From positions 1 through 64,000 of the forward strand of contig CAIMVG010000023.1 in NCBI GenBank assembly GCA_903844845.1: a DNA stretch of 64,000 nt, written 5' to 3'. Below the pieces are notes generated by a model that ran no database searches, was not told the DNA's origin, and was given only the letters and a program-made list of their open reading frames with translations. A program made the translations under genes and the position numbers. Of the stretch, positions 26,114 through 34,789 are shown one piece after another. Within the stretch, counting starts at the first letter, position 1, and every line of letters begins with the position of its first letter. The DNA comes from an uncultured Dehalococcoidia bacterium. GTDB taxonomy: Bacteria > Chloroflexota > Dehalococcoidia > Dehalococcoidales > UBA1222.

Positions 26114-26854
26114 ATGTCAGAAGAGGAAAAGACTAACAAACCTGGGATTTCCAGAAGGGAATTCCTGAAAGATGCCGGTATGGTTGTCGGCGGAGTGACC
26201 GTTGGTTCGCTGGCTTTTGCTAATGCTTGTTCCAAGACGACCACTTCGACGCTAACTTCCACCCAGACCAAAACTGTTACCCCTGCCCCCATCACCATCA
26301 CCAACACCGCCGGTGTTTACACCGACCCCGTGGACGGGCAGACCTTCTCGTCGCTCGATGCGATGAAAGCCCACTTCAACACCGTGCATCCTAATGGGGA
26401 CGCGGCCATCGTTTCTTTCACCGTCAACGGCACGGTTCAAGCTTTCCAGGTCAAACCCTACTGGTCTCTGGCTCGCGTACTGCGCGAGGGCCTCGGCCTG
26501 TTTGCCTTGAAGGAAGGCTGCAACTACGGCGAGTGCGGCGCGTGCACAGTCAACGTGAACGGCACCGCCATATTTGCCTGCATGATGCTTGCCTGCGAAA
26601 TGGAAGGCGCAACGGTACTGACCGTCGAGGGCCTTTCTCCGTCTGGTACGCTCAGCCCCGTACAGCAGAAGTTTTTCGACACCGAGGCCTTCGGGTGCGG
26701 TATCTGCACTCCTGGTTTCGTGATGGCGGCTAATGCGCTTTACAAAGCTACTCCTAAACCGACTCTTGCACAGGTACAGCAGGCGCTGTCCGGGCATATT
26801 TGCATGTGCAGTAACCTCACCAGGACGGTTAATGCTCTAGTAGGGGGTGTTTAA
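26114..26854 (+). CDS. PaoA-like [2Fe-2S] subunit of a Tat-exported molybdenum hydroxylase
   Basis: 246 residues. The N-terminus carries a Tat signal (SRREFLKD plus a hydrophobic stretch ending FANAC, possibly a lipid-modification site). Two [2Fe-2S] clusters are complete: the plant-ferredoxin type C136-x4-C141-x2-C144-x11-C156 and the helical type C195-x2-C198-x31-C230-x-C232. An extra segment (residues 67-97) precedes the ferredoxin domain and resembles a C2H2 finger with its cysteines lost. It passes electrons between the Mo and FAD subunits and should carry the complex through the Tat pore. AGGAGG is 13 bases from the ATG, rather far. Three-gene layout as in E. coli PaoABC. Confidence 0.88.
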   Translation: MSEEEKTNKPGISRREFLKDAGMVVGGVTVGSLAFANACSKTTTSTLTSTQTKTVTPAPITITNTAGVYTDPVDGQTFSSLDAMKAHFNTVHPNGDAAIVSFTVNGTVQAFQVKPYWSLARVLREGLGLFALKEGCNYGECGACTVNVNGTAIFACMMLACEMEGATVLTVEGLSPSGTLSPVQQKFFDTEAFGCGICTPGFVMAANALYKATPKPTLAQVQQALSGHICMCSNLTRTVNALVGGV

Positions 26855-26856
26855 AA

Positions 26857-29691
26857 ATGTCACTCGTAGCACCGTATACAGTAGTTAACGACCCGAAACT
26901 CCATGATCCTATGGCCGCCATGATTGTCACCGGGCGTCTCGATTTCCCGGATGACCGCCTGGCTGGCAGAAAACTCTGGGCCGCGGTCAAGACCTCGACC
27001 AATGCCCATGGTTCCATCCTTGCCGATGCCGGCACCATTACTGCCGTCAACGTCGGCAATGCTGGCAGCGCTTATACTTCTGCCCCCACCGTCACCTTCA
27101 CCGGCGGCGGCGGCACTGGCGCTTCAGCGACCGCGACTCTTAGCGCAACCGGCACGATTTCCGGTATCACTCTCAACAACGCGGGCAGTGGTTATACCTC
27201 CGCTCCCACCATCACACTGACCGGTGGTGCCGGCACCGGCGCTACCGCGACCGTTGCTTTCACCATGGGCAAACTTCATATTGATACAGCCGCTGCCCTG
27301 GCTTTCCCGGGGGTCCGCGGTGTATTCCATGCTGGCTCCTTCCCTGCCGGCAGTTCGGCGGCAGGCGCCTTTGCTACCAGCTGGACCAACTATGGCGTCG
27401 TCATCGCGGCCGTTGTGGCCGATGACTGGGAAACTGCCCGCTGGGCGTGCAACCTGGTAAACGTGACCTACAACTCTCCTCTTCCCGTCGTCTTCGACGC
27501 GGATGCTGCTATGAGCGCTAGTTCCCCTCTATCCGGTCGCCAGGCTACCGGCAATGTCACTACCAGCACTCAGACCCGACTTGACGCTGCAGGAAACGGC
27601 GCTGCCTACGGTCTCGCGCATTGCGACAAGACCATGCAGTTCACCACTGATTGGACACCGACCCAGCAGCACAATCCCATCCATCCCAAAACGGGCCTCG
27701 CCTATTTCACGGGCGATCCCGGATCACAGACGGTTCAGGGCACTGGCGACTGCTACGGTTTCAGCGTAACTCAGAACGCCATGAGCCATCTCAACAGCTT
27801 GTACTCTTCCGTCAACATGCCTCAGCAGCAGACTCATTATTCAGCTCATGCCTGCGGCGGCGGTTTTGGTGACGGTGAAAGCACTGTTCAGATGTCCATG
27901 GCAGCAGTTTTGTCCCAAGCCCTGGGCGGAGCCCCTGTCGTCTTAAAACTCTCCCGCAAAGATCACAACCACATTGGCGGACGCCAGTACGATACCAAGG
28001 GCGTATTCAATATCGGTTACAACAAAGACGGGACCATCGTCGCCTGGCAGGGCGGCTGGTACGGCAACGGCGGCGGCGCCAGCGGTATGTGGTATGGCCC
28101 CAGGACTACCTATAAGATTCCGTATATTGACTGGACCGCCTACAATATCTATACCAATACTCCCGCCCGCAACTCCTGGCGCGACGTGGCCGACATCGAA
28201 GGTGGAGGGGCGTTTGAACGCTGCTTCGACCTTATTGCGGCTGATCTTGGTATGGATCCTTATGCCCTGCGTCAGAAAAACCTGATGGGTGTTCTTGATC
28301 ATGACCAGGACGGAACTAAACTGATCTGGAGCGACAAGTGCGTCAATGACTGTCTCGCTCAGGCCTATTCCGCCAGCGGTTATGCCACCAAGTGGCATGC
28401 CCCGAATACCAAGACCCTCCCCGATGGCAGGAAACACGGTATCGCCATCGGCGGTCGCCAGGACTCCCACGGCGGTATGAGCGGCGGCGGTCGTTACGGC
28501 CACATCATGATGGGTGGTACTCACACCAACGGCAGCGTTGAGATGTACATGGGCGGTTCCAGGGCCTCTATGGGCCCCCAGGCCGCCATGATGGTCGTCG
28601 TCGCTGAAGTCCTCGGGTTGCCCTACAGCGCAGTCAGGCTGGCTGAATGGGGTAACGGCGATATCACCCTTGCCGACGGTATGCAGAATGGTTCGAGCCA
28701 CACCCCCGGCGCCGGTTCTGCCTTCTACATGGCCGCACTCGACATGCGCACGCGCATTTTCAACAGGGCTTGCGGTCTCGCTCCTTTGAATGCGGTCGTT
28801 CCTGCTGGTGTGACCCAGGCTAAAGCCACCGCCGTTCTTTCCACCGTTTTCCCCGGCGGCACCATCGCCAGCTTCACCATCACCAACGGCGGTTCCGGCT
28901 ATACTGGTGTTCCGGCTGTCACCATCTCCGGCGGCGGCGGCACCTCAGCATCCGCGACCGCTCATGTCACCAATGGTGTCGTCGATTCCATTGTCGTAAC
29001 AAACCCTGGTTCCGGCTTCACTACCGTACCCACGGTTGTCATTTCCGCGGTTACCCCCGACCTGCTTGATGCCGCCAATGGCAGTATCTTCCTCAAGAGC
29101 GATTCCACCAAGACCGTAACCCATGCCACCTGTACCAGCGGCTGGGATCCTCAGATCTCCGTCGCCCAGGGTTGGGGTTCCTACCTCAGAACTGCCGCAG
29201 TGGGGGATTCCCCCATTGGCTCTGCCTGCAACAGCACCGGAGCTGCCGCCGCCTGCATCGAGGTAGCGGTCGATACTAATACTGGAGAAGTTGAGATCCT
29301 CAGTTACGTTAATGCAACTTCCACCGGCACCACCCTCTTCAAACCGGGTGTGCAGAAAGAAATGATGTCCGGCAACGAAGCCGGTATAGGCCAATGGCTC
29401 TTCTACGGCGACGTCTACGATCCCACCACCGCCGCCGTGCTTCAGATGTCGCATGGTTGCTTCAGCCACCCGACCGCCATGGACCTCTATCCCACTGCTA
29501 ACACCTACATTGAAGTACAGCACAATAGCCCTTCGGGCCCGCTGGGATGCCATGGTATGGCAGAACCGGCTTCCGGCGAAGGAAACGTCATCTGGCAGGC
29601 TATCTACAATGCCATCGGCGTTTTCCCTGACCATAATCATGGAGCCGGCAGCCCGAACGTAATTCTCAAGGCTCTCGGTAAGGCTACCTAG
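26857..29691 (+). CDS. Molybdenum hydroxylase catalytic subunit with repeat insertions
   Basis: 944 residues, the xanthine-dehydrogenase/aldehyde-oxidase Mo subunit. Core elements: GRLDFPDDRLAGRKLWAAV near the start, HACGGGFGDGE (about 331) for cofactor contact, and the end segment GMAEPASGEGN with Glu 903 matching the catalytic base. Two stretches are not part of the fold: residues 57-135 and about 656-731, each holding two glycine-rich repeats of the type AGSGYTSAPT-x-T-x-TGG-x-GTGA, seen in surface proteins. The first lies exactly between AHGSIL and IDTAAALAFPGV, normally joined by a short turn. The start is 2 bases after the previous stop. Probable oxidation of an aldehyde or aromatic substrate outside the cell membrane. 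Confidence 0.88.
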   Translation: MSLVAPYTVVNDPKLHDPMAAMIVTGRLDFPDDRLAGRKLWAAVKTSTNAHGSILADAGTITAVNVGNAGSAYTSAPTVTFTGGGGTGASATATLSATGTISGITLNNAGSGYTSAPTITLTGGAGTGATATVAFTMGKLHIDTAAALAFPGVRGVFHAGSFPAGSSAAGAFATSWTNYGVVIAAVVADDWETARWACNLVNVTYNSPLPVVFDADAAMSASSPLSGRQATGNVTTSTQTRLDAAGNGAAYGLAHCDKTMQFTTDWTPTQQHNPIHPKTGLAYFTGDPGSQTVQGTGDCYGFSVTQNAMSHLNSLYSSVNMPQQQTHYSAHACGGGFGDGESTVQMSMAAVLSQALGGAPVVLKLSRKDHNHIGGRQYDTKGVFNIGYNKDGTIVAWQGGWYGNGGGASGMWYGPRTTYKIPYIDWTAYNIYTNTPARNSWRDVADIEGGGAFERCFDLIAADLGMDPYALRQKNLMGVLDHDQDGTKLIWSDKCVNDCLAQAYSASGYATKWHAPNTKTLPDGRKHGIAIGGRQDSHGGMSGGGRYGHIMMGGTHTNGSVEMYMGGSRASMGPQAAMMVVVAEVLGLPYSAVRLAEWGNGDITLADGMQNGSSHTPGAGSAFYMAALDMRTRIFNRACGLAPLNAVVPAGVTQAKATAVLSTVFPGGTIASFTITNGGSGYTGVPAVTISGGGGTSASATAHVTNGVVDSIVVTNPGSGFTTVPTVVISAVTPDLLDAANGSIFLKSDSTKTVTHATCTSGWDPQISVAQGWGSYLRTAAVGDSPIGSACNSTGAAAACIEVAVDTNTGEVEILSYVNATSTGTTLFKPGVQKEMMSGNEAGIGQWLFYGDVYDPTTAAVLQMSHGCFSHPTAMDLYPTANTYIEVQHNSPSGPLGCHGMAEPASGEGNVIWQAIYNAIGVFPDHNHGAGSPNVILKALGKAT
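27025..27261 (+). repeat. Glycine-rich repeat pair inserted in the Mo subunit, site 1
   Basis: Encodes residues 57-135: two repeats of about 38 residues, the units sharing SAPT, TGG and GTGA. The DNA copies are visibly related to each other and to those at 28822-29049. It interrupts the N-terminal domain between two strands. Confidence 0.75.
28822..29049 (+). repeat. Glycine-rich repeat pair inserted in the Mo subunit, site 2
   Basis: Encodes residues 656-731: one full unit (NGGSGYTGVPAVTISGGGG) and a second truncated one (NPGSGFTTVPTVVIS). Same family as the pair at 27025. Confidence 0.75.
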
Positions 29692-29704: not shown

Positions 29705-30709
29705 ATGAATCTGTTTACGCACGTTAACGCAACAACCATAGCCGAGGCCACCGCTGCTACCGCGAAAGCCGGGACTGCGCCTATCGCCGGCGGCTCGGAT
29801 CTTCTTACCTACCTTAGGACCATGTGTTCTCCTAACGCCCCCACGAATCTGGTCAACCTGAAGACCGTCGTTCCCTCGATGGCCTACATCAAGGAAGAAG
29901 GCGGTTTCCTGAAGGTCGGGGCCTTGACCACTCTGACTGCCATCGCCAACGATTCGACGACCCTCGCGAAGTACACTGCTTTGGCCCAGGCGGCTCTTTC
30001 CGTTGCCAGTCCCGAACTTCGCAACCAGGGCACCATCGGCGGCAATATCTGCCAGAAGCCCCGCTGCCAGTATTTCCGGTTCGATAACGACGATTTCAAG
30101 TGCTTGCGCAAGGATCCTGCCGGCACCTGTTTCGCCCTGACCGGCGTGAATACCTATCACTCGGTCTTCGGGCCCCTGAATGGCTGCGTAGCGGCCTTGC
30201 CTTCGGACATCGCTCCGGTACTGGTAGCTATGAATGCCAACATTGTGACCACTGTAAAGACCTGGAAGGCCGCAGATTTCTTCGTCGTCCCCAATGTAGC
30301 GGATGCTCGAAGAGAACAGATCAATGCCCTTGCCGCAGGGGAAATTGTAACTGAAATCCAGATCCCCACCCCCGCAACAGGCAGCAAGAGCGCCTACATG
30401 AAATGGTCCTTCCGTAAATCCATTGACTTCCCGCTGGTATCCGCGGCTGTCTTGACCACGGTCGCCGGCGGCAGTGTCACCGCGGCCAGCATCGTGCTTG
30501 GCGCCGTGTACGGCCAGCCCAGGGTAGCCACGGGCGCCCAGACGGCATTGGTCGGACAGGCCATTAACGCCACTTCCGCCACCGCGGCTGGCACCGCAGC
30601 CGCCACTGGCACCACAGTCCTCCCGACTCCCGGCGGAACTAACAGCAACAGCTATAAAGTCCAGATCATCAAGGTCATGGTACAGAAGGCTGTGCTGGCT
30701 ACCGCCTAG
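29705..30709 (+). CDS. FAD subunit of the molybdenum hydroxylase, PaoB-like
   Basis: 334 residues, CoxM-type FAD-binding fold: AGGSDLLTYLR (about 28), LKVGALTTLTAIAND (about 69) and IGGNICQ (111). Between residues 114 and 145 it holds four cysteines (C116, C121, C133, C142) in the segment NICQKPRCQYFR...CLRKDPAGTC, matching the extra [4Fe-4S] loop found in E. coli PaoB (YagS) and 4-hydroxybenzoyl-CoA reductase. This supports a PaoABC-like identity. The C-terminal end is Ala/Thr-rich. GGAGG precedes the ATG, and it ends the operon before a strong terminator. It passes electrons to an unknown outside acceptor. Confidence 0.88.
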   Translation: MNLFTHVNATTIAEATAATAKAGTAPIAGGSDLLTYLRTMCSPNAPTNLVNLKTVVPSMAYIKEEGGFLKVGALTTLTAIANDSTTLAKYTALAQAALSVASPELRNQGTIGGNICQKPRCQYFRFDNDDFKCLRKDPAGTCFALTGVNTYHSVFGPLNGCVAALPSDIAPVLVAMNANIVTTVKTWKAADFFVVPNVADARREQINALAAGEIVTEIQIPTPATGSKSAYMKWSFRKSIDFPLVSAAVLTTVAGGSVTAASIVLGAVYGQPRVATGAQTALVGQAINATSATAAGTAAATGTTVLPTPGGTNSNSYKVQIIKVMVQKAVLATA

Positions 30710-34111: not shown

Positions 34112-34789
34112 TTATTGCACAATCCTGATATAGGTTACGCCTTTAACCCATGCTGTTCCTTCTCTTCCGGGTACCACCAGGCGAAGAGGGTACCCGCGGT
34201 CGGCCGGTAATCCTTGCCCGTTGTATTTGTACGCAAGGAATATGTCCCCTGAGAGCACGCCCTGTTCCTGAACTGAAAAGGGGGCGGCGTACCCTGAAGA
34301 GTCCATGACGTTAACCTGGGTTGCTTCGGATTTTATGCCGCTTGCGGTTAAGATGGATATTAAGGGCACCCCGGTCCATTCACTTGTTTCATCGAATACG
34401 CCCGGGCAGGTCAGTGTGACCGTTTTTGTGACCGAAGGAAATTGTAGGATGGAATCATAGTTGAGCGTGAGTGGAGTGTTGACTAATCCATCCACTGATA
34501 GAGAATAGTTGACGGGTGAGGAGTTGATGTTTGGCAAAGGTGAAGCCGGCGAGCTTGCCTGATTGACCGGCGCGTTCGTCGTAGGGCCAGTGCCCTCGGA
34601 TGCTCCCTTGGCCGGAACTATGGCAGGCATTTCGGCGGTTTTATCGGTGCTGTTGCAGGCATTTAAAAAGGCTATAGGCGTTAACAAGTATAACCCTATT
34701 GCCAGCAGGCCGTCTTTAAGGAATTTCCTGCGTGAGATTTGCCCCGGTTCTTTGCTTGTAATTACGTCCACTTTTATATCCTTGGACAA
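34112..34789 (-). CDS. Tat-exported sulfite-oxidase-fold molybdopterin protein
   Basis: 225 residues. Tat signal SRRKFLKDG followed by a hydrophobic stretch ending LNAC (possible lipoprotein site). A Ser/Pro linker leads to a compact molybdopterin-binding domain: YSLSVDGLVNTPLTL, TLTCPGVFDETSEWTGVPL with Cys as likely Mo ligand, and GYPLRLVVPGREGTAWVKGV. It resembles the core domain of YedY/MsrP and sulfite oxidase relatives without their dimerisation domain. It sits next to the cupredoxin-like lipoprotein (50-base gap, same strand), so the two may work together outside the membrane. Substrate unknown. Confidence 0.82.
   Translation of the reverse strand: MSKDIKVDVITSKEPGQISRRKFLKDGLLAIGLYLLTPIAFLNACNSTDKTAEMPAIVPAKGASEGTGPTTNAPVNQASSPASPLPNINSSPVNYSLSVDGLVNTPLTLNYDSILQFPSVTKTVTLTCPGVFDETSEWTGVPLISILTASGIKSEATQVNVMDSSGYAAPFSVQEQGVLSGDIFLAYKYNGQGLPADRGYPLRLVVPGREGTAWVKGVTYIRIVQ

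Follow-up and report, generated by a model that had tools for sequence, protein, structure and literature searches.

A PaoABC-like, Tat-exported molybdenum hydroxylase from an uncultured Dehalococcoidia bacterium with two phage-type repeat domains in predicted surface loops of its molybdenum subunit

Introduction

Among described enzymes, the closest points of comparison for the locus reported here include Escherichia coli PaoABC, in which PaoA bears a Tat leader, aromatic aldehydes are the preferred substrates and there is no dimerisation through the molybdenum domain (PMC3958847). For the domains that interrupt the enzyme, comparisons come from tailed phages: domain I of the T4 tail sheath protein gp18 is a six-stranded barrel with a helix, inserted in domain II, from which it protrudes, and binds the baseplate and the retracted tail fibres (review, PMC3004832), while weak carbohydrate binding has been proposed for the Ig-like accessory domains of tailed phages (a proposal quoted in PMC9230969).

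Here, we describe a molybdenum hydroxylase encoded by an uncultured Dehalococcoidia bacterium (Chloroflexota; Dehalococcoidales; UBA1222; GenBank assembly GCA_903844845.1) on the first 64,000 nucleotides of contig CAIMVG010000023.1—the stretch of DNA that was analysed, hereafter the window—in which a glycine-rich repeat occurs at two places within the molybdenum (Mo) subunit. A first-pass annotation, made from the sequence alone, knew of no described enzyme of this class with such inserts. Our own survey of the literature, incomplete in its coverage, likewise found no description of a molybdenum hydroxylase with such inserts, nor of the repeat family; nevertheless, the enzyme is not unique, as four relatives share the trait.

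Results

The Mo subunit is encoded by an uninterrupted open reading frame (26857..29691, forward strand; 944 aa, comprising a core of about 775 aa and two inserts), flanked by genes for an Fe-S subunit (26114..26854, forward strand; 246 aa, 2 × [2Fe-2S], Pfam Fer2_2 6e-20) and a FAD subunit (29705..30709, forward strand; 334 aa, Pfam FAD_binding_5 and CO_deh_flav_C). Pfam recognises in the Mo subunit the Mo-binding domains of the xanthine-oxidase family, MoCoBD_1 (2.8e-28) and MoCoBD_2 (3.3e-13), together with the a/b hammerhead (Ald_Xan_dh_C, likewise above cut-off), in keeping with its first assignment to the molybdenum hydroxylases. When the active-site motifs were scored (GGxFG loop, arginine of the W/FR motif, glutamine of the Q loop and C-terminal glutamate), the catalytic residues proved to be retained: in the alignment, G334, G338 and R442 are invariant in 22 relatives and E903 is nearly so, and Q306 and N307 are invariant in five insert-bearing relatives. 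Of the insert-bearing proteins, that of the window lies on the longest branch (1.25 changes per column), and its WRDVADIEG takes the place of the WRCVGDPP found in most relatives; its substrate may therefore have changed.

Export of the complex, proposed from the outset, is borne out by the adjacent Fe-S subunit, which carries a Tat signal (NCBIfam TAT_signal_seq, TIGR01409, above cut-off). The same signal is found on the Fe-S subunit in four orthologous operons, in all of which the genes run Fe-S, Mo, FAD as far as the contig can be read. At the N-terminus of the window's Fe-S subunit (SRREFLKDAG...AFANAC), a lipobox-like cysteine follows the Tat signal, with FLSSC, FLSAC and FLGAC in orthologues, which suggests a lipid anchor. 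Fe-S subunits of the family also have a C2H2-like motif (CPxDG..F.S...L..H....HP) between the Tat signal and the [2Fe-2S] domain, the cysteine of which has been lost from the window's Fe-S subunit (YTDPVDG).

The best matches of the FAD subunit in the PDB are 5y6q_B (6.4e-36) and PaoB (5g5g_B, 5.1e-31), and four extra cysteines (C121, C133, C142 and C161), in register with those of PaoB, are candidate ligands of an additional, PaoB-like [4Fe-4S] cluster. Scores against NCBIfam equivalogs fell far below the cut-offs for PaoC (72.6 against 1180 bits), PaoA (106.3 against 322) and the three subunits of 4-hydroxybenzoyl-CoA reductase (TIGR03193-03195; 149.4 against 994.55 for the Mo subunit, 124 against 257.8 and 133.5 against 404.55 bits), so we call the complex PaoABC-like rather than filing it as PaoABC. 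Export makes a CoA thioester an unlikely substrate, and the complex is probably a PaoABC-like exported aldehyde oxidoreductase. About 3.4 kb downstream, on the opposite strand, lies a gene for a sulfite-oxidase-type molybdopterin protein (34112-34789; Oxidored_molyb 2.4e-29).

Alignment, a single-unit profile and DSSP were used together to delimit the two inserts. Insert 1 (27022..27276, forward strand; residues 56-140, 85 aa) lies within the a/b-hammerhead domain, between AHGSIL and HIDTAAAL. Insert 2 (28795..29046, forward strand; residues 647-730, 84 aa) is preceded by a helix (615-639) and APLNA and followed by AVTPDLLDAANGS. The first-pass annotation had put the repeats at residues 57-135 and 656-731, the right places with slightly tight limits. 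In 14 insert-less paralogues of the family, including five from the window's genome—which encodes five Mo subunits of xanthine-oxidase type besides this one—there are only 0-5 residues at the first site and 0-2 at the second; without its inserts, the window protein would be 775 aa long, about the size of these paralogues.

In an AlphaFold2 (AF2) model of the Mo subunit (overall pLDDT 84.1; inserts 87-96), both inserts are predicted to occupy surface loops. About 700 residues of the modelled core align by VIA-align with the Methylobacillus aldehyde oxidase (5y6q_C, Z 38.3), PaoC (5g5g_C, Z 36.4) and xanthine oxidase, so the inserts are predicted to leave the core undisturbed, as the first reading of the sequence had supposed. 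Since GC3 in the inserts equals that in the rest of the gene, they are neither a recent acquisition nor a misassembled piece; the single open frame, the equal GC3 and the presence of inserts in four other genes from metagenome-assembled genomes (MAGs) rule out an assembly error or frameshift.

The repeat unit spans about 38 residues (pattern ItxVtVtNxGSGYTSAPTVTiTGGGGsGAtATAtv), and each insert holds two units' worth. A single-unit profile, built from phage repeats and Mo site-1 inserts, finds two successive full units in insert 1 (27031..27144, forward strand, residues 59-96, E 1e-17; and 27151..27261, forward strand, residues 99-135, E 7e-17). Insert 2 belongs to the same family, as had been claimed, but is shifted in phase, beginning with the last third of a unit, continuing with a full unit and ending with the first two thirds of another. 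Its opening C-strand half unit (28807..28845, forward strand, residues 651-663) covers profile positions 27-39 with an E-value of 0.4 when taken alone, backed by orthologues and by a model strand at 656-661; the full unit (28858..28968, forward strand, residues 668-704) scores E 2e-12 and the closing A-B half unit (28975..29046, forward strand, residues 707-730; profile positions 1-24) E 6e-8. The profile had no match in two insert-less paralogues, and the repeats are not a chance resemblance.

This make-up in two phases agrees with the six strands that DSSP assigns to each insert in the AF2 model: 59-68, 78-82, 90-95, 101-108, 118-122 and 130-136 in insert 1, in the order ABC-A'B'C', and 656-661, 670-677, 688-691, 699-705, 708-716 and 726-729 in insert 2, in the order C-ABC-A'B'. 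Insert 1 modelled alone reaches a pLDDT of 94. Since two units that form a closed pair may be opened at more than one point, we read the predicted folds as circular permutations of one two-unit domain opened at two points. A two-unit, six-stranded insertion domain is thus a better description of the repeats than a cell-wall repeat.

The closest relatives of this domain are phage virion proteins. Independent phage-family profiles (PHROGs) recover both inserts, at 1.7e-17 and 5.6e-14, the families concerned being head closure Hc2, baseplate wedge, tail fibre and virion structural proteins. Among annotated phages there are 395 matching records, mostly from cyanophages, with matches inside neck, sheath, tube and baseplate proteins, and BFVD returns phage proteins at E 2.7e-6 with TM about 0.8. 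No family in Pfam or NCBIfam scored above cut-off for the repeat (best LtfC, 18 of 27 bits, and XDD4, 18.8 of 40 bits), a plasmid collection gave a single weak match, and sequence searches returned no convincing relative with a solved structure. Foldseek comparison of the insert with the PDB gave nothing significant (best E 0.87). VIA-align against the PDB placed residues 99-188 of T4 gp18 first, at a Z of 6.0 that lies in the chance range for an arrangement (rmsd 3.0, 74 aligned residues; next Z 2.4). We treat the likeness to gp18 domain I as a weak lead, which need not mean kinship and may reflect a common arrangement only.

In the Chloroflexota, the repeat is uncommon (17/400 genomes at 1e-6). 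Besides the Mo subunit, exported proteins of the phylum into which the domain is spliced are di-haem peroxidases, multicopper oxidases, a Tat ferredoxin, SecD and a DUF2589 protein. Both phases of the domain recur: full units in the Persinger tail sheath, the PseuP_224 tail tube and one site of a multicopper oxidase (L243), and the half-full-half form at the other site of L243, in L248 and in two di-haem cytochrome c peroxidase-like proteins (L035 on G041:C1 and L038 on G040:C1; CCP_MauG 2e-30), where it sits in the linker between the haem domains. A paralogue of L038 without the insert (L272), encoded a few kb away in the same genome (G040), supports insertion in the peroxidase.

Multicopper oxidases with the units occur in ten genomes, two of them Pfam-confirmed and the others recognised by eye from their common sequence. 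These exported proteins (L240, L242-L244, L247-L249, L253, L263 and L265) have the units at several loops or in N-terminal arrays, and one such site seems to hold both permuted forms, in different genomes (L243 and L263). The ferredoxin, a Tat-signal 4Fe-4S protein from a termite-gut Dehalococcoidia genome (L226/L269; G009:C36, 315-1499), has four GSGYT units just ahead of its last cysteine motif, and the gene that follows starts like an AOR-type (tungsten aldehyde) oxidoreductase. SecD (L040; G057:C138, 1117-3216) carries about four units in its extracytoplasmic P1 domain; GSGYT repeat makes up much of a 4057-aa secreted protein (L036; G132:C16); and a prepilin-like protein from the window's genus (L227; G001:C54) has GSGYT units and is split by an apparent frameshift.

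Genes with both inserts at these sites occur in three genomes from other genera (L015, L016 and L017, on G004:C28, G005:C54 and G007:C6), and one further gene has only the second insert (L022, on G004:C16). The first-pass annotation had allowed that the repeats might be absent from all homologues of the same operon; as they recur at the same sites in relatives, this is not so. The insert-bearing contigs came to light in a scan of public genomes and belong to the termite-gut Dehalococcoidia MAGs Lab288P3bin99, Th196P4bin31 and Nt197P3bin126, whose sample codes point to the termites Labiotermes labralis, Termes hospes and Neocapritermes taracua (PMC7024585). Scanning public-genome contigs with the window protein alone gave no match, whereas an alignment-based scan found the relatives. 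A search across 393 genomes of the class, using a profile of insert 2 and its flanks, gave full matches only within the window's family; among molybdenum hydroxylases outside that family, the insert was found in none of 34 other relatives, nor across the 393 genomes of the class.

The inserts appear to have been inherited site by site, because each is closer to its same-site counterpart in L015 (similarity scores of 243 for the first and 206 for the second) than the two window inserts are to each other (158); the same scores rule out a recent internal duplication from one site to the other. Between the window protein and L015, the inserts are 57-60% identical and the core 40%; this difference does not imply selection for a site-specific ligand, as phage pairs that are unrelated show comparable identity to the window. 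In the tree, the four two-insert genes group together with weak support (50/85) and L022 is set apart from them. A single origin of insert 2, with all five genes in one clade, is weakly rejected (p-AU 0.033). The inserts of L015 and L022, from one genome, are 70% identical, and insert 2 of L022 may have been gained separately, may be what is left after a loss, or may have come by exchange between paralogues within the genome.

Discussion

We propose that a Tat-exported, PaoABC-like complex carries two phage-type, two-unit domains in loops of its Mo subunit that act as docking modules, a reading that we hold at slightly better than even odds (roughly 55%). The Fe-S, Mo and FAD heterotrimer, Tat-exported and probably lipid-anchored, would most likely oxidise aldehydes outside the cytoplasm. 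An ancestor would have gained two copies of an autonomous six-stranded domain, putatively from phage genes, in two surface loops of the Mo subunit; either permuted form would bring the chain ends close together and thus fit a loop with the core undisturbed. The two barrels would then protrude and dock the enzyme, once exported, on a polymer or partner outside the cell, much as tail fibres and baseplate are held by the outward-pointing domain I of gp18 in the T4 tail sheath. Judged by the roles of gp18 domain I and of the surface domains of phages (PMC9230969), docking would be the likeliest role of the inserts. The first-pass annotation had suggested the cell wall, a partner or a polymeric substrate as what the repeats may bind.

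The main rival, which we consider unlikely though worth weighing, is that the inserts are tolerated passengers: a robust, promiscuous domain captured from phage genes that folds by itself in permissive loops, harmless and with no specific task. The domain does turn up in many unrelated hosts, including SecD and a phage tail tube, which have no function in common; most paralogues do without it; and L022, with an insert at site 2 only, indicates that insert 1 is dispensable. Yet the inserts are intact at both sites in four genera whose cores are 57-68% different, and the repeat motif has not decayed.

Less probable still is a module for redox partnership or self-association, by which the enzyme would dock to one particular electron acceptor outside the cytoplasm or to its own copies. 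Elsewhere in the phylum, the domain is carried mostly by redox proteins that are exported (multicopper oxidase, di-haem peroxidase and Tat ferredoxin) and, as the Mo domain of PaoABC takes no part in dimerisation, that surface is free (PMC3958847); against this, no possible partner in the window's genome carries the domain, and SecD, DUF2589 and phage proteins have it too. An anchor to the cell wall, as first suggested for these repeats, or to the S-layer would be in line with the long repeat arrays of very large proteins that the phylum secretes (for example, 4057 aa in G132). It is very improbable, because no other protein of the window's genome carries the domain (the Mo enzyme is its sole locus there at E 1e-3, where several surface proteins would be expected) and because a lipobox-like anchor site is already present on the Fe-S subunit.

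If the inserts do dock the enzyme, they would tie the decoration domains of phages to the positioning of redox enzymes outside the cell, a connection open to testing, with the insert-less paralogues of the window's genome as natural controls; the rule of a closed pair opened at two points could predict where such a domain fits. A broader and decidedly speculative extension of the docking reading is that the GSGYT pair circulates, in either permutation, between genes for phage virions and genes for exported redox enzymes as a general means of docking on extracellular polymers, which in the guts of soil-feeding termites might be humic or lignin-derived material.

Among known enzymes, E. coli PaoABC (5g5g) and the Methylobacillus KY4400 aldehyde oxidase (5y6q) resemble the window complex in having three separate subunits, the same Mo-subunit fold, a small Fe-S subunit (PaoA) that bears the Tat signal and a FAD subunit with four extra cysteines. 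They differ in that the gene order in the window is Fe-S, Mo, FAD, in an identity of about 20%, and in the Mo chains of the solved structures (731 and 748 modelled residues), which leave no room for either insert. 4-Hydroxybenzoyl-CoA reductase (HcrABC, 1rm6), also of the xanthine-oxidase family, is the enzyme against which the Mo and FAD subunits score highest in NCBIfam, but these scores lie far under the equivalog cut-offs, HcrA has no inserts and the window complex is exported.

Among known domains, gp18 domain I (3fo8, residues 98-188) is inserted into another domain and six-stranded, as the window's inserts are predicted to be, but has an added helix, and sequence searches do not place it in the repeat family. 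The Ig-like accessory domains that tailed phages carry are likewise promiscuous, beta-rich surface decorations, but differ in sequence, and the insert has no match to a Pfam Ig family. The two-unit inserts of phages themselves—in the Persinger tail sheath, the PseuP_224 tail tube and cyanophage neck and baseplate wedge proteins—share the sequence family and size of those in the window and also sit inside a conserved domain, but there the host is a component of the virion and not an enzyme.
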